This document shows, piece by piece, positions 5,669-20,047 of a DNA stretch of 26,108 nucleotides. The translations under genes were made by a program, and so were the position numbers. Under the pieces are notes generated by a model. The model was not told where the DNA came from. It saw only the letters and a program-made list of their open reading frames with translations, and made no database searches. Each line of letters opens with the position of its first letter. Within the stretch, counting starts at the first letter, position 1. The DNA is from a virus, in IMG/VR virus record IMGVR_UViG_3300028364_000128, positions 1 through 26,108 of that record. One strand, written 5' to 3'.

Positions 5669-6592
5669 TTAAATGATAATTTTTCGTCCATTACTGTCGG
5701 TTGATAGCTCACCATTAGATGAAGTTGCTTTATTGTATTCATTGTACCAAGCAATGGTCTCGGATTCGGTCATCTTTGAGAAGTCAGGTGATGTATTTAG
5801 GTCTACTGTTGTAGTTGGTTTCACACCATTCTTTTCTTGAGGACTTTTTGACTCGAGGCCACGTTTTTTTGGTGAGATAAGTTTCGATAATGCATCCTTG
5901 CTTTTGTATATGATGTAGTCAATTTCTTTATCGTGATACTGGTCAGTATGAGCAAGTTCACTTAATTTACTTTTGATCACTTCTTTATCTATCTCCGATA
6001 GTTCTGGGAAAAATTCTTTTAGAGTTGGAGCCGCTTGGTCGAACTCTTGATTGAATGATTGCTCATCGCTCTGTGTGTTCGATATCCGCTTTGCATCGTC
6101 AAGTGTCCGCCGATCATCCTCTGAAAGTGACGAGATATCCTTGGTCAAGATTGTTTTTAGTTGCCTTAGAGTGTCCGGGGACATCTCGTTTTCTTCAGCA
6201 AACTTTGACAATTCGTCCTGAACATCTTCATTCTCTTCCTGGGTCGAAGCGCTGTTTCCTTTTTCGATGATAGCTTTTAGTTCCAAGTTTTCTCTCTCTA
6301 ATTCTTTGCTTCGCTCTTTTTCATTTCTAAGGTCTTTCTTTTTCTCCTTATACTCTTCATAGATACGTCGCGGTTTACTAGCTTGTTTCTCCTCTTCTTG
6401 ATTCTCGGGTTTTTCAGGCTCTTCTTCATGATCGTCTTTTCCTTCAGGGTCAGCTTTCGGCTTATCTTCCGGTGTGTGATCGTCTTGAGGTTTCGCTTCT
6501 GGTTCCTTTGTTTCAGGAGGAGTTGGATTCTCTAGTTCTGGTAAGTCGACTCCGTTAGCTTTCAAATCTTCCAAATATTGTTTTTCGTCCAT
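5669..6592 (-). CDS. Capsid scaffolding protein
   Basis: A 307-residue, highly charged protein immediately upstream of the capsid gene. Residues 15-75 are Pro/Glu/Lys/Asp-rich and probably disordered. Residues about 75-115 form a strong coiled coil (YEEYKEKKKDLRNEKERSKE onwards). A further helical region extends to about residue 235, and the C-terminal tail ends in GRKIII. Size, charge, coiled coil and location between portal and capsid genes are typical of internal scaffold proteins that are released or cleaved during head maturation. No Ser-His-Asp protease motif is obvious, so a separate or absent prohead protease is assumed. The start follows AAATACACC without SD. Confidence 0.8.
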   Translation of the reverse strand: MDEKQYLEDLKANGVDLPELENPTPPETKEPEAKPQDDHTPEDKPKADPEGKDDHEEEPEKPENQEEEKQASKPRRIYEEYKEKKKDLRNEKERSKELERENLELKAIIEKGNSASTQEENEDVQDELSKFAEENEMSPDTLRQLKTILTKDISSLSEDDRRTLDDAKRISNTQSDEQSFNQEFDQAAPTLKEFFPELSEIDKEVIKSKLSELAHTDQYHDKEIDYIIYKSKDALSKLISPKKRGLESKSPQEKNGVKPTTTVDLNTSPDFSKMTESETIAWYNEYNKATSSNGELSTDSNGRKIII

Positions 6593-7465: not shown

Positions 7466-9490
7466 TTATATTGTGTCTTCGGCCATACTTAGTGCTTTGC
7501 TCATTCCTCCTGGCATTCCGGGGTTCTCCGCTTTGGACTCTGGAGGCAGTTGCATTCCTTCTGGTTGTTGTTGCCCTGCCATCCCTTCATTCTCTAGCAT
7601 CTTACGTTCTATGTTTTGTCTTGCAATCTCTTCGTGTTGCATTGCATAGTCAATCATTTGTTGAAACTTAGGACCGAGGGTTGCTCGCTTATCTGAGGCA
7701 ACGTCCACAATCTTTTGGACGAATGCGATGTTGGCTCCGTACCATATCTGTGGCTGTTGGCCCATCAGTATGAACTGTACCGCCTCTGCAGCTTTGGCAA
7801 GTGCCTTCCGGTCCTGGAATGTTTTCATGTCTAGGAACTCTGCTACCTCCGAGTCATCATACTCTCCAATTGATGTGAGGATCTCTTCGTTGAGCTTCTG
7901 TGGGTTCACAGTTCCTGGCATGATCATCTTTAGAGCCTCTACTCTTCGGTCCTTCTTCATTTCTGATTCTTGCACCTTGAGGTCTGATGATTCTACGAAT
8001 ATGTCGATGTCCTTATCAGTGTTCAGGTCTAGTCTTGTGATGTCATCCCAGTCCCATCCACCTTCGCCCATGATTCGTACAGCCATCTTCCCAGGCATGT
8101 GGTCTTTGAGTCCCCAGATGTATGATTTACCAAGGTCGGCCATCATGTCCTGGAATGGTTGTGATCCCCATCCAATTCGTTTTGATACTGACTTCTGTTC
8201 TGCGAATGTCACTGATGCTTTCTTTGATACGTTTTGTACACCTCCCATGGCTAGGTCGGTTGCTCCTGTGTTTCTTCCGAGTGACCCTGTGATCCAGTCG
8301 ATGAGGTTCACAGTTCCTTGTAGCTCGCCTGTCTTGAATTCAAATACCCCTTGCGCGATTTGCTTTGTACCTCCTTTTGTATCTGCAGGCACCAATGCAT
8401 CCGGTCGGTGCATGGCCTCGTCTAGCTTTCGCACGTCCTTGAACATGTCCTTGTCATAGGCTCTCGCTCCGAAGTTTCTCTTTTCTCGGTTGGTTAGCTC
8501 CTGGTTGAACATCGCTACGATCGCATCTGCTGCAGGGTAAAGGTCATCGGCGTACGACTTTGATAGGAAGTTCTTTTTGTCCTGGTGAGTTGCAAAGGTT
8601 TTCCAAGGGTAGAGTCCTGATGAGTCTATGTTCTTCCACTTCTCGAAGCGTAGCCATGTCTTGGTCCAGGGATGGAAGCATAGGTAGTATCGCTCTCCTT
8701 TTATGTTCAAGATATGTTCTGCTATTCGGAACACTGGTTCGCCTACGTATGTTTCGCTTGTTGGATCAAGGCCAAGTGGTTTGAACCTTGCGAGCCTTTC
8801 ATTCATGTCCATGTTTTCTCGGTCCGGGAGGTACTCCTGGTCAGCTGACCTTTCCACGAGTAGTTTTACTTGCTTTGCATCATATATTCCGGCTTCAGCT
8901 CCTGATTCCAAGTCTGACTTTGTTTTTTCTACGTTCTCCACACCTGCGAAGAGGTGATTCTCCAGGATGTATCCTCCTTCCGGTTGGAAGTTGAAGTCAG
9001 TCAGGTCTACGTTTGTTATCTCTGATTTGTATTCAGGGTTTGATGTCGCTCGGTACTCTATGATTCCTACTCCGGTCATGATTGCATCCTTTCTGGCCAT
9101 CCGCAGTTTTGATTCCCACTTACTGTTCTTGTTCGCATCCATCACTTCCATTTGGAATGCTGCGTTTACTTTCTTTACCTTGAAGTAATCCTCCGGTCCT
9201 CCTTCCTTAAAGTTCAGGATGATTGGCGTGTCGTATTGTGTATTCAAAGTGTCAATCATTCCGGGGAACACTGGGATGGCTACGTTGAAGAGTTGTCGTA
9301 GTTTCTTTGGTGTCTTGCCATCATATAGCTCATAGAATTTTGTAGTCCTGGCTATTCTAGGTTTCTTGAATTGATGGCAGGCATTGATTTGTAAAGTTGC
9401 ACGCCTAACAGCATCCTCTGCCATTGTTTCTTTTTCTGTTTGGTCGAGGGTTGACGATTTTTCTTCAGTAGAGTTTTTGTATTCTTGCAT
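7466..9490 (-). CDS. Portal protein
   Basis: A 674-residue protein between terminase and scaffold genes, in the expected place and size for a large portal protein (P22-like portals are about 700 aa). It shows the alternating helix and beta outline of the family: an early RIARTTKFYELYDGKTP, then LRQLFNVAIPVFPGMIDTLN, a DAIMTGVGIIEYRA segment, and a central Tyr/Trp-rich part (YYLCFHPWTKTWLRFEKW). A long C-terminal helical barrel-like part runs from about residue 540 and ends in a Gln/Pro/Gly/Met-rich tail. It forms the dodecameric DNA gate at the capsid vertex that docks TerL and neck proteins. The start has no SD (TTTATCACT-ATG). Confidence 0.9.
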   Translation of the reverse strand: MQEYKNSTEEKSSTLDQTEKETMAEDAVRRATLQINACHQFKKPRIARTTKFYELYDGKTPKKLRQLFNVAIPVFPGMIDTLNTQYDTPIILNFKEGGPEDYFKVKKVNAAFQMEVMDANKNSKWESKLRMARKDAIMTGVGIIEYRATSNPEYKSEITNVDLTDFNFQPEGGYILENHLFAGVENVEKTKSDLESGAEAGIYDAKQVKLLVERSADQEYLPDRENMDMNERLARFKPLGLDPTSETYVGEPVFRIAEHILNIKGERYYLCFHPWTKTWLRFEKWKNIDSSGLYPWKTFATHQDKKNFLSKSYADDLYPAADAIVAMFNQELTNREKRNFGARAYDKDMFKDVRKLDEAMHRPDALVPADTKGGTKQIAQGVFEFKTGELQGTVNLIDWITGSLGRNTGATDLAMGGVQNVSKKASVTFAEQKSVSKRIGWGSQPFQDMMADLGKSYIWGLKDHMPGKMAVRIMGEGGWDWDDITRLDLNTDKDIDIFVESSDLKVQESEMKKDRRVEALKMIMPGTVNPQKLNEEILTSIGEYDDSEVAEFLDMKTFQDRKALAKAAEAVQFILMGQQPQIWYGANIAFVQKIVDVASDKRATLGPKFQQMIDYAMQHEEIARQNIERKMLENEGMAGQQQPEGMQLPPESKAENPGMPGGMSKALSMAEDTI

Positions 9491-11584: not shown

Positions 11585-11939
11585 CTTGTATTTCGATGTC
11601 TAGATTAATGTTTTTCTGCACAGGTTTGTCGTGCTTTCTGTCCATGTAGTCTTGATAGAACTTGTAGTCTCCGAGCCTCGCCTTCTTGATACCCATCTCA
11701 AATATCTCTAGCTCCATCTTGTCCGGGTCGCCTCCATTCTTTTTAGCGAGCGATATCATTGCTTCGCGCATCAGAGTTCTGTAGTTCTTTTGTCCTTTAG
11801 GACGACCGTTAGGATTACCTCCTGGTATGAGATTTAATTTTCTCTTTTCTATACCAGTCAGTGTTTTTCGAGTTTCATTCGAGTTTTTGACCTTAGTCGC
11901 TTTTAATGGTACAGTTTTTTTTACTAGCTTTTTGGCCAT
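11493..11939 (-). CDS. terS: Terminase small subunit-like protein
   Basis: A 148-residue protein just upstream of TerL. The N-terminal 30 residues are Lys-rich. Residues about 40-55 read GGNPNGRPKGQKNYRT, the NPNGRPKG signature found in many phage small-terminase-like proteins, followed by a helical segment REAMISLAKKNGG. The C-terminal half is helical and charged. The small subunit recognises the packaging site and stimulates TerL. It overlaps the methyltransferase by 16 bases upstream and TerL by 92 bases downstream, making a tightly packed packaging cluster. The assignment relies on the motif plus position. Confidence 0.75.
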   Translation of the reverse strand: MAKKLVKKTVPLKATKVKNSNETRKTLTGIEKRKLNLIPGGNPNGRPKGQKNYRTLMREAMISLAKKNGGDPDKMELEIFEMGIKKARLGDYKFYQDYMDRKHDKPVQKNINLDIEIQDEEIDEKANEAVRRFMGLASNTKKQGQDKD

Positions 11940-13168
11940 TTTATTTTCTTCTTATTCTTGACCACCTCGCCTCCTTCAGTGAAGTCTACCCACCTCTGTA
12001 CGATCACGTCACAGTATTTTGGGTCTAGCTCTAGTCCATAGCATAGTCTACTCGACTTCTCGGCTGCAATCACTGTTGATCCTGATCCAAGGAATTGGTC
12101 CAGGACGATGTCATCCTCTTTGGTACTGTTTGTGATTGCTTTAACCACTAGCTCTACAGGCTTCTGGGTCGGATGCACGTAGTCATTCACGTTTGAACGT
12201 TTCATTGACCACACCGTTGATTGCCCACCCTCGATTGATTCCGTTTGTTTCCGGAGCCAGTCGAGAGCCTTGAGGTCATCTGCAGGTATTTTCCACACTG
12301 TTGTTCCTCGCCTGTCACCATAAAAACTTTTCTTTTTGTTCAGGTAGCAATAATAGAAAGGCTCATGTTTTGTCCTGTAGTCATTCATGCCGAGTCCGGC
12401 TGATGGTTTATTCCAGATGAGTTGTGTATCTATGATGAAGCCTACATGGTTTAGCGCCATGTCGAAGTCGGTCATTGTCTTGTGTGAGTGAAAGACATAG
12501 CATCCGGCGGTCGCCTTAATGTTCTCCTTCATTCGTTCGAACGTTCCGAGTAGGAACGTAGAGAACTGCTCGTCTGACATCTTGTCATTCAGGATTGTGT
12601 TCGAAGTCTTTTTACCTGTACCTGAGTAGTTCACGTTGTACGGAGGATCTGTGAAGACTGCATCCGCCTTGTGTCCATCCATAAGTTTCTCCAGGGCCTC
12701 GACACTGGTGCTATCTCCACAGAGGAGTCGGTGTCCGTTTAGTTCATACAAGTCGCCTAGCTTGCTACGTGGTTCGTCTGGTAGTCCCGGAACGACGTCA
12801 TCCTTTGAGTCCACATCAATTATGAGGTCAGCTTCGAAGCCTGTCATCTCGAGTAGTCGCATCTCTAGCTCTTTGAGTTCCTCGATTACGAGTTCCATAT
12901 CCCAGTCTGATTCATTCAATTTGTTGTCGGCGAGCCGATACGCTTTCGCTTGCTGTTCGGTCAGGTCTACGACCTTTATCCATTCAGGTTTCACATCCCA
13001 CCCAAGCATTTGCAGCGCTGCGAATCGTCCATGGCCAACAATGATTACTCCATCATTATCCACGACGATTTGTTGGTTCATTCCAAACTCTTCAATTGAC
13101 TTTGCTACTTGCTCAATCTGTTTCTTGGGATGCTTTTTAGCATTTTTTGAGTAGGGTCTGATATCCAT
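11924..13168 (-). CDS. ParB-like domain fused to DNA adenine/cytosine-N4 methyltransferase
   Basis: A 414-residue two-domain protein. Residues 1-110 form a ParB/Srx-like domain, with GHGRFAAL at 45-52 and a QxxAYRLADNKLNE segment at about 73-86. Residues about 135-414 form an amino-methyltransferase: DPPY at 174-177 (catalytic motif IV), HPTQKP at 332-337, and the S-adenosylmethionine loop FLGSGS at 359-364, an order seen in beta-class enzymes. It would methylate N6 of adenine or N4 of cytosine. The fusion is widespread in phages and mobile elements. Its place directly upstream of TerS suggests a role linked to packaging or to protecting late DNA from restriction. The start follows AATAACTT without SD. 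Confidence 0.92.
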   Translation of the reverse strand: MDIRPYSKNAKKHPKKQIEQVAKSIEEFGMNQQIVVDNDGVIIVGHGRFAALQMLGWDVKPEWIKVVDLTEQQAKAYRLADNKLNESDWDMELVIEELKELEMRLLEMTGFEADLIIDVDSKDDVVPGLPDEPRSKLGDLYELNGHRLLCGDSTSVEALEKLMDGHKADAVFTDPPYNVNYSGTGKKTSNTILNDKMSDEQFSTFLLGTFERMKENIKATAGCYVFHSHKTMTDFDMALNHVGFIIDTQLIWNKPSAGLGMNDYRTKHEPFYYCYLNKKKSFYGDRRGTTVWKIPADDLKALDWLRKQTESIEGGQSTVWSMKRSNVNDYVHPTQKPVELVVKAITNSTKEDDIVLDQFLGSGSTVIAAEKSSRLCYGLELDPKYCDVIVQRWVDFTEGGEVVKNKKKIKWPKS

Positions 13169-14202: not shown

Positions 14203-14208
14203 GGTCTG

Positions 14209-14237
14209 ATATTAGCACCTGCCTTGCGTTACTGCAA
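14209..14237 (-). promoter_or_regulatory. Sigma70-like late promoter, probably leaderless
   Basis: On the minus strand TTGCAG (14232-14237) and TAATAT (14209-14214) are separated by exactly 17 bases. The A of the first ATG (14202) is seven bases past the -10 element, where transcription normally starts. The spacer holds the motif CCTTGCGTTACT (plus-strand orientation), shared with the promoter region at 21.9 kb, so a common regulator may bind here. It would drive the whole leftward late operon. Confidence 0.6.
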
Positions 14238-14244
14238 CCATACG

Positions 14245-14253
14245 TTATACACA
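14245..14253 (+). promoter_or_regulatory. DnaA-box match
   Basis: TTATACACA fits the bacterial DnaA-box consensus TTWTNCACA at all nine positions. It lies 95 bases from the iteron array and just upstream of the late promoter. A single box can occur by chance, so its weight comes from the company of the iterons. Confidence 0.4.
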
Positions 14254-14347
14254 GGGGTTTATTGCCATATTACGCACCATAACTTGACAACCCGTCAAAT
14301 TATGTGAATTCGTTTAAACGTTGGTATATATAGCTTTTGCCTCTAAC

Positions 14348-14648
14348 TTGCACACCTTTAGGGGGTGTGCAAGGGGTGTGCAAGGGGTGTGCAACCTCCA
14401 CAGAGCGTTATATATTCCCCTCTCCTGTCTATTTGCATACCTCACACACCTATTTAGGGGGTATAAACTAGTAGGGAAAGTACAGCACCAGTGGACCCCA
14501 CCCCGATCCCCCACCCCCACCCCAGTGTTGGGAAAAGGTATGCAAATGTTGTCAAGGTGTGCAAGCCCCTTTGCCACACTCGTCTAAGGCTTGCACACCC
14601 CCCTTGCACACCCCCTATTTGTGGTGTAATACTGTCAAAGGTATGCAA
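14348..14648. repeat. Iteron array: ten copies of GGTRTGCAA in both orientations
   Basis: Exact copies in plus orientation start at 14364, 14375, 14386, 14537, 14556 and 14640. Copies in minus orientation (TTGCRYACC) start at 14348, 14433, 14591 and 14604. Seven carry GTG and three carry ATG at the variable position. The three tandem copies at 14364-14394 are spaced exactly 11 bases, about one helical turn, so a protein would line up on one face of the DNA. The first two copies face each other as a palindrome (14347-14373). Copies at 14361-14384 and 14590-14615 form a larger inverted repeat around the G-quadruplex motif. Such arrays bind replication initiators or repressors. Confidence 0.85.
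14496..14523 (-). other. G-quadruplex motif with five G-runs
   Basis: The minus strand has G-runs of 4, 5, 5, 4 and 4 with spacers of 1, 1, 3 and 1 bases (plus-strand C-runs at 14496-14499, 14501-14504, 14508-14512, 14514-14518 and 14520-14523). Long runs with one-base loops are the most stable quadruplex class. It sits in the middle of the iteron array. Confidence 0.7.
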
Positions 14649-14663
14649 GTTTTCCCCATAATT

Positions 14664-14679
14664 AGGGTATCGGTACCCT
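14664..14679. repeat. Small perfect hairpin upstream of a TATAAT box
   Basis: AGGGTA and TACCCT pair perfectly around TCGG. A TATAAT element follows at 14691-14696 and the -35 area would overlap the hairpin, so it could be an operator that replaces or blocks a -35 element for rightward transcription. Confidence 0.4.
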
Positions 14680-14690
14680 TATTTGTATTG

Positions 14691-14696
14691 TATAAT
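14691..14696 (+). promoter_or_regulatory. Possible rightward -10 element
   Basis: A perfect TATAAT preceded by TTG, with no good -35 hexamer 16-18 bases upstream. It may need an activator, perhaps the iteron-binding protein, and would read towards the 32-aa and HNH genes. Confidence 0.35.
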
Positions 14697-14735
14697 GCTA
14701 ATTAGATGCACTGTACTCACTTAAATAATCAGAGA

Positions 14736-14770
14736 CACCTCACTACTTTCACGAGCATTGGGGTGTTTTT
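14736..14770 (+). terminator. Possible intrinsic terminator or attenuator
   Basis: CACCTC (14736-14741) pairs with GGGGTG (14760-14765), including one T-G pair, and five T residues follow. The 18-base loop makes it weak. It would stop or attenuate rightward transcription from the iteron region. Confidence 0.35.
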
Positions 14771-14793
14771 GATTCCCATGATATGATATATCT

Positions 14794-14892
14794 ATGAATA
14801 ATCACCCTGATTCACAGAATATTGATGACACAGAAAAATATGCAGTTATGCAGGATCCATCCGACTTGAACGTTTGTGATTCTTGCCAGTAA
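14794..14892 (+). CDS. Possible 32-aa peptide
   Basis: A 32-residue frame starts at ATG 14794 and ends at TAA 14890-14892. It is acidic and Asn/Asp-rich and ends in a CDSC pair, a possible half zinc site. TTGGGG (14758-14763) and TATGAT (14782-14787) lie 18 bases apart upstream; if used, transcription would begin near the ATG itself, like the late operon. There is no SD. It could be a real leaderless gene or a chance frame. Confidence 0.3.
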   Translation: MNNHPDSQNIDDTEKYAVMQDPSDLNVCDSCQ

Positions 14893-15089
14893 CATGGTAC
14901 AATTAACTAGTCGTATTATTCATGTTTACGACAGACCTTTTAATTTTTTTTTTGTTATTAAATAAAAATTTACCTTAGCAAGGCACATCCGATTTCCCCG
15001 GGTGTGTTTTTGTTTACTATATAAAAGTGTATAACTTTTTAATCACGCGCTTGGAGGGTGTATAATTAAATAGAAAGGAGAACATTTAT
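14893..15089 (+). other. Intergenic leader of the HNH unit
   Basis: The stretch contains a T-tract (14944-14953), the hairpin at 14984-15006 and a TATAAT box at 15061-15066. The transcript from that box would begin near 15073, giving a leader of about 17 bases with AAAGGAG at 15074-15080, nine bases before the ATG. The -35 region is poor (TTTAAT at 15038-15043). No gene is seen before 15090. Confidence 0.4.
14984..15011 (+). terminator. Intrinsic terminator
   Basis: CACATCC (14984-14990) pairs with GGGTGTG (15000-15006) as a 7-bp stem including one T-G pair, with a 9-base loop and five T residues directly after. It would end transcripts from the 32-aa frame or from the iteron region before the HNH unit. 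Confidence 0.5.
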
Positions 15090-15209
15090 ATGGAAATACA
15101 ACCGCTACTATTCAAAGAAGTCTTCGGAAAGTACATGTACTGGCACGAAGTTCGCAGGGTATCTCGGTACTCAATCAGGTCATCAGCCCACGACTTTCTA
15201 AGGCAATGA
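15090..15209 (+). CDS. 39-aa peptide coupled to the HNH gene
   Basis: A 39-residue frame from ATG 15090, with AAAGGAG nine bases upstream, one of the few clear SD sequences here. It overlaps the HNH start as ATGA (15206-15209), the classic arrangement for translational coupling. The peptide is basic and aromatic (KYMYWHEVRRVSRYS in outline) and has no recognised family. It may be a genuine small protein or mainly a leader that tunes HNH translation. Confidence 0.5.
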   Translation: MEIQPLLFKEVFGKYMYWHEVRRVSRYSIRSSAHDFLRQ

Positions 15210-15448: not shown

Positions 15449-15512
15449 GTGTCTTTTTTACAGGATCCTTTTGGTTCTTGGCGTATTATTTGCATTGGTT
15501 AGTTATCTTTAA
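15441..15512 (+). CDS. Possible 23-aa membrane peptide
   Basis: ATG 15441 overlaps the HNH stop by eight bases. The 23 residues are almost entirely hydrophobic (ILLVLGVLFALVSYL), long enough for one membrane helix. It runs 14 bases into the 3' end of the convergent methyltransferase gene. There is no SD of its own; translation would rely on coupling. It may be a chance frame. Confidence 0.25.
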   Translation: MVECLFYRILLVLGVLFALVSYL

Positions 15513-16113
15513 TCTCTTTGTCTAGGGAGGAGAGGATATGCAAGCCGAGTTCAGGTTCTACACAATTATTTAATAATGTTCTCTTATCTCTTTTGTAGTT
15601 ATAGAAATCTTGTATAAACATTCCCTGCTGTTCCATTTTTACTGCGAGAGTCATACCTTTGTCGTTTCGCACTTTCTTCCTAGTCTGACCAGTATCTGGT
15701 ATTTCAAAGTTAGCCCAAAAATAATGACTCTGTATTTCTTGTGGTTTAATTAGTGGGTCATAATAACTGCGGACATTCTCAATAACATATTTGCCTTTGA
15801 AAAATTGTCTTAGTAGTATTATTTCTTCGTAGAGTTTCATATCAGGAAACTTTAGATTAAGTCCCCTTTGTGCGTGTAAGAAGTTCATTCGTGAATGAGT
15901 AGGGCAAGGAGGGCTACTCCAAATCAAGTCAAATTCTCTGAAATGCTCTAAAAGATACTGGTGAGCATCTCCAACTATCACAGTGTCGTTAGGAAAGAAG
16001 TCTTGGTAGATTTTGGCAATATCTGGGTCATTTTCTATTGCTACTATTTCGTGTTTATCTCCCCAAAGTTTGCGGTTCCCTCCTATTCCAGCGTACAAAT
16101 TTAGTATTTTCAT
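15499..16113 (-). CDS. Compact C5-cytosine DNA methyltransferase
   Basis: At 204 residues this is much shorter than typical C5 enzymes (300-450 aa). Visible motifs are motif I LNLYAGIGG (residues 4-12), motif IV with the catalytic cysteine C70 in SSPPCPTHSR, and motif VI ENV (112-114). A recognisable long target-recognition domain is absent. The family of short phage enzymes starting with LNLYAGIGGNRKLW is common, so it is likely functional, not truncated. It would methylate cytosine in phage DNA, protecting it from host restriction. It is last in the leftward early operon and converges with the HNH unit. Confidence 0.88.
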   Translation of the reverse strand: MKILNLYAGIGGNRKLWGDKHEIVAIENDPDIAKIYQDFFPNDTVIVGDAHQYLLEHFREFDLIWSSPPCPTHSRMNFLHAQRGLNLKFPDMKLYEEIILLRQFFKGKYVIENVRSYYDPLIKPQEIQSHYFWANFEIPDTGQTRKKVRNDKGMTLAVKMEQQGMFIQDFYNYKRDKRTLLNNCVEPELGLHILSSLDKEIKDN

Positions 16114-17896: not shown

Positions 17897-20047
17897 ATGA
17901 ATAAAAAAAACCCCCTCGTAAAAAAATACGGTAAGAACGCTCAATGGGTGAATTGGAAGTTCAAGGTTGTGGGAGGTAGAAATACCAAGATACCTCTGCA
18001 GGCCAACGGAAGAAATGCATCATCGACTGACCCTTCTCATTGGCAGACATATAAGGATGCAGTCAAGAACGACCCCAACGTTGGTATTGTTTTTAAGCCT
18101 GATCGTTTGCTCCTGGGTGTGGACATGGATCATGTCCTTGAGGGTTTGAATATTGTTCACGAGAAACGTCAGCAGATTGCTGAGTTTATAATTCAGTCCC
18201 AAACGTATTGCGAGATTTCTCCTTCCGGGACTGGGTTGCATTTATATTTTGAAGTCACTGAGCCTTTCGATATGGTGTCTAATAGAAAAGAACCTTTTGA
18301 GCTGTATACTCATGGCCGCTATTTTACTACCACGTTCAATTCGTATAAGGAAGAGCAGGATGTCCGAACTGTTACGCCCAAGGAAGTCGAGGAGCTTCTT
18401 GCCATCCTGGACTACCCATGGAAGAAGTCTGTGGATCCATCGTCTGCAGTTCCTTCAACCATAAATGTTGGTGACGAGCGTTCTGATGATGTGATTCTTA
18501 AAAACATGTTTAAGTCTAAGAATGGTTCCGGCATCGAGCGATTATATAATGGAGACATCTCGGGCTATAAAGATGATGGCTCGTCTGCTGATATGGCCTT
18601 GCTCTCGCACCTCGCTTTCTGGACTGTGAAGAATGCTGTTCAGATGGACCGCATCTGGCTATCGTCTCCACTTGGTAATAGAGAAAAGACTCAGGATCGT
18701 GAGGACTATCGTGTTCGCAGTGTCGGGAATGCTATCGATAATTGCAAGGCGGTGTATGAGACTAAGGTCGAAAAAATTGCCAAGGAGAACCCTGGTATTA
18801 ATTTTCTCTACGTTCTCAATAAAGAAAAAGAGAAACAGATTATCAGAAACACTGAAAACATCTGCAGGGTTCTTCGTGGCCATCCTGATTTTATCGGTCG
18901 GTATCGATACGACATATTCAACAATGCATACCAAATAAAGATTGGGGAGGTTTGGCGAGGCCTCGAGGATGCTGATGCTATTAATACACAGACTGCTATC
19001 TCTATCTTGTTCCCGGACTTCTTTGGAATGGTTGGAAAGGACATGGCGTATGACTCCATCATAAAAGTTTCTAAGGAGTGTGCGGTCGACACCGCCTCGG
19101 ACTACATTACCTCCCTTGTGTGGGACAAGGTTCCTCGCGTTGATCACTGGCTCTCTAAAGTGTACGGAGTGGCTGATGATGAGTACCACAAGAAGGTTGC
19201 ATCTAACTGGTTGAAGGGGTTGGTCAAGCGTATCGTACGTCCTGGATGTAAGTTCGATTACGTTCTGGTTCTGGAGGGTGACCAAGGTACCAAGAAGTCT
19301 ACTTCTTTGTCGATCCTGGGGGGCGATTGGCATGTTGAGACTACGATGTCTACCGAGTCTAAGGACTTCTTCATGCAGTTCCAGGGTAAGGCTATCATCG
19401 AGTTCTCTGAGGGCGAGACGTTGTCGCGTACTGAGGTCAAGCGTATGAAGGCTATCATTACCACACAGGTTGATAAGTATCGTATGCCCTACGAGCGCGC
19501 ATCGGTCGACTACCCTCGCCGCTGTGTATTCGCCATGACTACGAATCAGGAAGAGTATCTGAAAGACGAAACTGGTAACCGACGATGGCTACCTGTGAAG
19601 TTGGTTTTCCGGGAGGCTAATATCGATTGGCTAAAAAAGAACAAGGACCAATTATTTGCAGAGGCATATCATCGCGCAATCAATCTTGGTGAGACTGTCT
19701 ACGAGTTCCCGGAGGATGAGACTCGGATGCAACAGGATTCTCGACGTGTCCTTGATGCCAATACTGACATGATTGTTGATTGGTACTGGCATTCGCTCAC
19801 CGCCAAGCAACGGAACGATGGTGTCACTGTGCATCAGGTGCATCGTGACTGTCTCAACTCTGGCTTTGTTGCCAAGTCTATGGACAAATTGATTGAGATG
19901 CGGATCTGTGATGTTCTTCGGCTCACTCTTAAATTAAAAAAGAAGCGGAAGATGGTTGGGGGATCGCAGTCGGTGTATTGGGAGCCTGAGACTTTCGAGA
20001 AGGAGAATGTGGTTGATGAGTTTTTTAGGGTTGATAGTAAGTTCTAA
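17897..20047 (+). CDS. PrimPol-VapE/D5-like primase-helicase
   Basis: A 716-residue fusion. Residues about 10-150 form an archaeo-eukaryotic primase-polymerase domain, with a D76-x-D78-H79 metal/nucleotide site and SGTGLH containing H115. Residues about 400-650 form a VapE-type superfamily 3 helicase: Walker A GDQGTKKST at 461-469, then a FQGKAIIEFSEGE segment and TNQEEYLKDETGNRRWLPV, a hallmark of the family. It would lay primers and unwind DNA at the origin. The central lysine in the P-loop (TKKST in place of a GKST-like ending) is a small deviation. First gene of the rightward replication operon; no DNA polymerase is seen, so it probably recruits the host enzyme. Confidence 0.93.
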   Translation: MNKKNPLVKKYGKNAQWVNWKFKVVGGRNTKIPLQANGRNASSTDPSHWQTYKDAVKNDPNVGIVFKPDRLLLGVDMDHVLEGLNIVHEKRQQIAEFIIQSQTYCEISPSGTGLHLYFEVTEPFDMVSNRKEPFELYTHGRYFTTTFNSYKEEQDVRTVTPKEVEELLAILDYPWKKSVDPSSAVPSTINVGDERSDDVILKNMFKSKNGSGIERLYNGDISGYKDDGSSADMALLSHLAFWTVKNAVQMDRIWLSSPLGNREKTQDREDYRVRSVGNAIDNCKAVYETKVEKIAKENPGINFLYVLNKEKEKQIIRNTENICRVLRGHPDFIGRYRYDIFNNAYQIKIGEVWRGLEDADAINTQTAISILFPDFFGMVGKDMAYDSIIKVSKECAVDTASDYITSLVWDKVPRVDHWLSKVYGVADDEYHKKVASNWLKGLVKRIVRPGCKFDYVLVLEGDQGTKKSTSLSILGGDWHVETTMSTESKDFFMQFQGKAIIEFSEGETLSRTEVKRMKAIITTQVDKYRMPYERASVDYPRRCVFAMTTNQEEYLKDETGNRRWLPVKLVFREANIDWLKKNKDQLFAEAYHRAINLGETVYEFPEDETRMQQDSRRVLDANTDMIVDWYWHSLTAKQRNDGVTVHQVHRDCLNSGFVAKSMDKLIEMRICDVLRLTLKLKKKRKMVGGSQSVYWEPETFEKENVVDEFFRVDSKF

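Follow-up and report, generated by a model that had tools for sequence, protein, structure and literature searches.

A mirror-symmetric iteron array in a tailed-phage genome is a probable replication origin with the PrimPol-VapE helicase of the same phage as its likely reader

The whole stretch of viral DNA analysed here (26,108 bases, referred to as the window) carried TerL and major head protein families and was thus assigned to a tailed phage; a portal-like protein was also searched in the phage collection and gave no match. A non-coding region was located at 14203-15205, with the structural operon running leftward on one side and an HNH-like ORF running rightward on the other, and the replication operon started only at 17897. 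Within the non-coding region, an array of the 9-mer GGTRTGCAA occupied 14348-14648, 3.3 kb 5' of the PrimPol-VapE gene, with the HNH, methylase and small genes lying between. The Rfam search returned nothing. Two DNA methylases were encoded in the window. One was a fusion of a ParB-like part to an N4-N6 methylase and belonged to the structural operon (11924-13168), and the other was a cytosine-C5 methylase adjoining the putative origin (15499-16113).

Exact matching on both strands of the window detected 10 copies of GGTRTGCAA, all in 14348-14648 and none elsewhere, comprising 7 copies of GGTGTGCAA and 3 of GGTATGCAA. The chance expectation was 0.47 copies, and 10 copies were reached in 0 of 100 shuffles. 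The exact-match count thus confirmed three statements of the first-pass annotation, namely that 10 exact copies lie in both orientations within 300 bases, that three of them are 11 bases apart (14364, 14375 and 14386), and that the copy number is far above chance. From left to right, the array consisted of an outermost GGTGTGCAA copy on the minus strand (14348-14356), an outer triplet of GGTGTGCAA on the plus strand with 11-bp spacing (14364-14372, 14375-14383 and 14386-14394), an inner GGTATGCAA copy on the minus strand (14433-14441), inner plus-strand copies of GGTATGCAA (14537-14545) and GGTGTGCAA (14556-14564), two outer minus-strand copies of GGTGTGCAA (14591-14599 and 14604-14612), and an outermost plus-strand GGTATGCAA copy (14640-14648). 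The sites at 14433-14441 and 14537-14545 were both directed away from the centre. A weak, possibly degenerate inner-left site (GGTGTGTGA, 14442-14450, minus strand) appeared with 2 mismatches in a 2-mismatch scan, and the clear sites numbered 10 (5+5), not 12.

The array was a mirror image about approximately 14484-14489, with 5 sites on each side of a gap of about 95-96 bp, a symmetry that the first-pass annotation had not mentioned. Inverted repeats spanned the centre, including a 22-nt pair at 14359-14380 and 14596-14617 (95% complementary) and an inner pair at 14431-14442 and 14536-14547 (100% complementary). The central gap (14442-14536), the presumed unwinding region, was not AT-rich, with a GC content of 0.56 compared to 0.43 for the whole window and a lowest 30-bp value of 0.37. 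Its right half was C-rich on the plus strand, with a G4-type motif on the minus strand at 14496-14523. A G-quadruplex centre was rejected as a conserved element, as the window and L129 arrays had a strict G4 motif and most other members of the clade did not.

The PrimPol-VapE gene (17897-20047, plus strand) encoded a protein of 716 aa, the proposed initiator, helicase and primase-polymerase. Its N-terminal half resembled the PrimPol of phage NrS-1, with a PrimPol and helix-bundle domain (NrS-1 pol HBD, PF22763, E=4e-15; PDB 6a9w and 6k9a, E~1e-20). The VapE/AAA+ helicase core was assigned to residues 405-612 (19109-19732, plus strand; PF05272, E=2e-66). The best fold match of the C-terminal half was 7pds (fold E=2e-25, sequence E=5e-37), a structure whose protein is named 'similar to D. 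nodosus vapE' in the deposition and whose title describes PriRep1 with dsDNA. Based on these sequence and fold matches, PrimPol-VapE is homologous to SaPI PriRep1 and a relative of the SaPI Rep helicases. The NrS-1 protein likewise has a ring-forming helicase half at its C-terminus; as a fold match, this region (E 1e-9) scored far below PriRep1. The AlphaFold model of PrimPol-VapE had a mean pLDDT of 89.8. At its end, helices at 623-633, 645-653 and 664-677 and strands at 680-687 and 690-697 were predicted, mostly with high pLDDT, and in the model the last ~80 ordered residues form a helix-helix-helix-hairpin as in a winged helix. This winged-helix-like domain (residues 623-697; 19763-19987, plus strand) is the proposed iteron reader. 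A classical iteron-plasmid replicon was rejected, as no Pfam match to the plasmid initiator families (Rep_3, RepC or Pi type) was detected among the 20 window proteins scanned.

Relatives of PrimPol/VapE were then scanned, without any motif being specified, for single 8-mers that clustered on both strands, using 114 fetched VapE-encoding loci together with the window and at least 5 exact 8-mer copies as the definition of an array. Inverted arrays were found at about 60 loci (59 after removal of duplicates, window included), compared to a maximum of 3 to 5 copies in the Markov null of each locus. The arrays were closely linked to the gene, with 52 of the 59 distinct ones lying less than 1 kb from VapE (expected fraction 0.23, p=6e-26). 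No clear array was detected at the close loci L131, L142, L143 and L149 or at L167. The near-identical contig L010 was rejected as independent support because it represents the same phage as the window (100% over the region).

The array word varied by family together with VapE, and many words had a common form. Near this gene, PrimPol relatives with 54-58% identity carried arrays of 9-mers that were similar, though not the same. GGTRTGCAA itself was shared by the window, L132, L134 and L139; the other words were AGGTATGGCA in L130, L145 and L148 (also given as GGTATGGCA for L130), GGTAGGCAA in L136 and L137, GGTGTTGCA in L129, AGGTGTGGCA in L150, and AGGTTAGGCA in L146 and L147. Many distant loci used AGGTTRGGAA and AGGTATGGAA, and quite different words were found in L184 (TCTACGTCC) and L235 (TGTAACAGT). 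The first-pass annotation had taken an absence of the repeats from the corresponding place in related phages as grounds for refutation, a test that the reading passed, since the relatives were found to keep the layout, with the word changed. Among isolated phages, an inverted array lay directly 3' of the VapE gene in Yersinia phage YeP5 (word AGACAACC) and in Staphylococcus phage 47 (words TGTTGCATCA/TGTTGTATCA), which indicated that the architecture is not confined to satellites; no array was found in Elizabethkingia phage TCUEAP1 or Bacteroides phage BC669P3.

A reciprocal scan, in which viral contigs were taken solely for a pair of GGTGTGCAA words, supplied a direction free of the bias introduced by fetching loci through VapE. 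With the twin contig L010 left out, 119 loci were obtained, and an inverted array (at least 4 copies) was present in 6 of them. A VapE homologue was encoded by 5 of these 6 loci, compared to 1 of the 113 loci without an inverted array (Fisher p=2e-7), and the sixth array, without VapE, sat at a contig end. Some of the VapE homologues among the five loci were only 32-39% identical to the others.

The geometry was also retained across relatives. A typical array contained 10-12 sites, arranged as about 6+6 around a central gap usually of 80-95 bp; twelve sites would correspond to the need of two hexamers. At L155, sites at -124, -115 and -104 were directed inward and those at -69, -60 and -51 outward, followed by the mirror image, and the arrays of L184 and L239 formed two opposed blocks of 6+6. 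When position and orientation were compared with a template built from 12 distant arrays, the window exceeded 400 random arrays (p=0.0025), and L130, L132, L133 and L136-L139 matched the template as well as the window did; orientation alone was not significant for the window (p=0.08). Based on the tree of VapE helicase halves, the array was upstream of the gene in 17/17 loci of the window's clade (by 2.5-3.3 kb in the window, L132 and L133) and downstream in 37/37 others, corresponding to one change on the tree with support of 100/100. In the distant VapE families, the array lay immediately 3' of the gene.

The gap sequences differed between groups. Alternating CG/CA/TG steps, Z-DNA-like, were observed in L155, L169 and L204 of the AGGTTRGGAA/AGGTATGGAA group, while gaps were AT-rich in L184, L212 and L239 and strongly purine/pyrimidine-biased in L128, L132 and L136. 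These gap types are presumed to be different sequence solutions for the melting region. In addition, Komagataeibacter loci L215, L219 and L234 carried inverted arrays (AGGGGTACG or AGGGAACA) that did not adjoin the VapE gene and were located 2-3 kb downstream of it.

Given its location between divergent transcription units, the array could be operator DNA bound by a phage repressor or acting in a transcription switch, with repressor oligomers on the repeats controlling both directions. A TTGAC-N5-GTCAA inverted repeat (TTGACAACCCGTCAA, about 14284-14298), a possible operator, lay in the interval from the array to the beginning of the leftward operon and would fit such a switch. However, the distant relatives had the same layout just 3' of VapE genes and not in a divergent promoter region, the site spacing was kept while the word changed, no repressor gene was common to the array-bearing loci, and no promoter-like site overlapping the array was found. 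An operator function was therefore considered very unlikely. A replication origin remained the preferred reading of the array, against which the position of the GC-skew minimum was counted (near 17-18 kb, tracking gene direction).

Homologues of the window genes were searched by tblastn (E<=1e-3) in 16 close and 42 distant array-bearing loci, and PrimPol-VapE was the only window gene common to all of them (16/16 and 42/42). Because the relatives had been fetched by VapE, these counts show the other genes dropping out. The first-pass annotation had named the 61-aa and 46-aa products as candidate readers, and an origin read by such a small protein, with PrimPol-VapE recruited later, deserved attention since the 61-aa product is small, basic and encoded beside the array. 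Its homologues were restricted to 4/16 close and 0/42 distant loci, and the 46-aa product had none at this threshold; even the widely shared neighbours (195-, 203- and 273-aa proteins) had no homologue in the 42 distant loci, and SaPI Rep helicases, relatives of PrimPol-VapE, are reported to recognise iteron origins via the C-terminal domain, binding the iterons themselves (PMC7581432). The small basic proteins were rejected as readers, and the recruitment scheme is about as improbable as the operator. Homologues of the HNH and cytosine-methylase genes were found in no array-bearing relative at the same threshold. The array could also be a parS-like or pac-like partition or packaging site read by the ParB-like N-terminus of the methyltransferase at 11924-13168, where a ParB_N-like domain is indeed present. 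Homologues of this methyltransferase were found in only 1/16 close and 2/42 distant array-bearing loci, which led to its rejection as reader, and the array tracked VapE and not the terminase (TerL in 3/16 close loci), making this the least probable of the three alternatives, to be entertained only remotely.

Within PrimPol-VapE, the reader was placed in the VapE half, since proteins of ~420 aa consisting of VapE without the PrimPol half still had arrays (L145, L148, L150 and L184). In the window's clade, motif distance followed the distance of the C-terminal domain given the AAA+ core (partial Mantel r=0.26, p=0.009, n=17; r=0.30, p=0.033 for clade members with PrimPol). Together with the SaPI Rep precedent, this covariation pointed to the C-terminal domain as the probable iteron reader, with moderate confidence, because the partial correlation vanished in the full set with PrimPol and was not significant there.

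Based on these comparisons, the array is probably a replication origin, and its reader the PrimPol-VapE helicase that the phage itself encodes (probability about 0.87), with binding and origin firing inferred from sequence comparison. PrimPol-VapE would recognise GGTRTGCAA through its C-terminal winged-helix-like domain, and its subunits would form two opposing AAA+ helicase rings, one on each half-array. The rings would then open the gap of ~95 bp at the centre and unwind DNA in the outward direction, and the PrimPol half of the same protein would prime and possibly extend DNA. The proposal of a multimeric DNA-binding protein acting as replication initiator thus gained comparative support. 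The accompanying view that no initiator of a known type was present and that the protein would be new did not hold, since PrimPol-VapE is homologous to SaPI PriRep1 and common to all array-bearing relatives.

Satellite phage P4 is a known case in which a primase-helicase, the alpha protein, reads its own origin repeats (ori/crr); both the repeat sequence and the alpha protein family differ from those of the window. In Ubeda et al. 2007 (via PMC7581432) and Fillol-Salom et al. 2018 (PMC6092414), the SaPI/PICI origin is described as a central gap flanked by short iterons in two sets, served by a Rep or Pri-Rep helicase. The window was similar in having two iteron sets flanking a central region (5+5, ~95-96-bp gap) and a VapE/AAA+ helicase as the putative initiator, in this case fused to a primase-polymerase, and, in line with PICIs, the arrays of distant VapE families directly followed the gene on its 3' side. 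Differently, the PICI centre is AT-rich while the window gap had a GC content of 0.56, and the PICI origin lies 3' of rep while the window array was 3.3 kb 5' and those of the whole clade were upstream. The window array would function in the manner of a PICI/SaPI origin; because both the AT-rich centre and the 3'-of-rep position were lacking, it was filed as a variant and not a member. The window also differed from a PICI satellite in carrying TerL and a major head protein, as a tailed phage. SCCmec Cch2 is likewise a helicase of the AAA+ type, and its C-terminal domain in isolation binds short repeats that lie downstream of the Cch2 gene, but its putative origin has only three 5-nt AAGTG repeats and it belongs to a D5-type helicase family (PMC7581432). 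NrS-1 primase recognises the words GTGG and TTTGGTTA (PMC8718748); a resemblance of these words to parts of some iterons and to the C-rich gap was set aside, as the L132 gap is without them.

The two-iteron-set origin has been held to be peculiar to phage-inducible islands (PMC6092414), and the roles of PrimPol-fused helicase domains have been called unclear (PMC8718748). Our results suggested that tailed phages with VapE helicases commonly have the two-set architecture, the geometry being kept and the word changed, and that the helicase halves of PrimPols may be origin-binding loaders. With roughly even odds, VapE-type helicases would define one widespread origin class of tailed phages and satellites, with a shared geometry (about 12 sites, 6+6, two hexamers' worth, 80-95 bp gap) and a word that drifts along with the C-terminal domain of the helicase. 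For the PrimPol clade of the window, this reading would have recognition, melting, unwinding, priming and the first copying of the relocated origin all carried out by one polypeptide, which would give the PrimPol helicase half a role. No paper with both 'VapE' and 'iterons' was found among the open-access papers covered, and because the check was confined to such papers, it is not certain that the phage-wide generalisation has priority. The layout gives a direct and cheap means of finding origins in uncultured phages and of predicting the specificity of their initiators, and the pairs of protein and DNA word form a natural series for decoding the winged-helix reader.

Further elements were observed around the arrays. 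A tentative DnaA-box-like site (TTATACACA, 14245-14253, plus strand) lay 94 bp left of the window array. In the clade, 11 such sites were found near the array in 9/17 loci, compared to 1.3 for permuted motifs, and five of them were perfect TTATCCACA; the enrichment over other non-coding DNA was 1.8-fold (p=0.08) and is suggestive only. In L146 and L147, the AGGTTAGGCA origin array, which lies just before PrimPol-VapE, was overlapped in its right half by a second array, of ATGTGACTTTT, with ~10 copies mostly in one orientation (L146, 5616-5857; L147, 5437-5688). Long complementary segments were also present just before PrimPol-VapE in several relatives (L129, ~5850-5990; L128, ~5880-5990; L005, ~8330-8420), which suggests a structured leader RNA.
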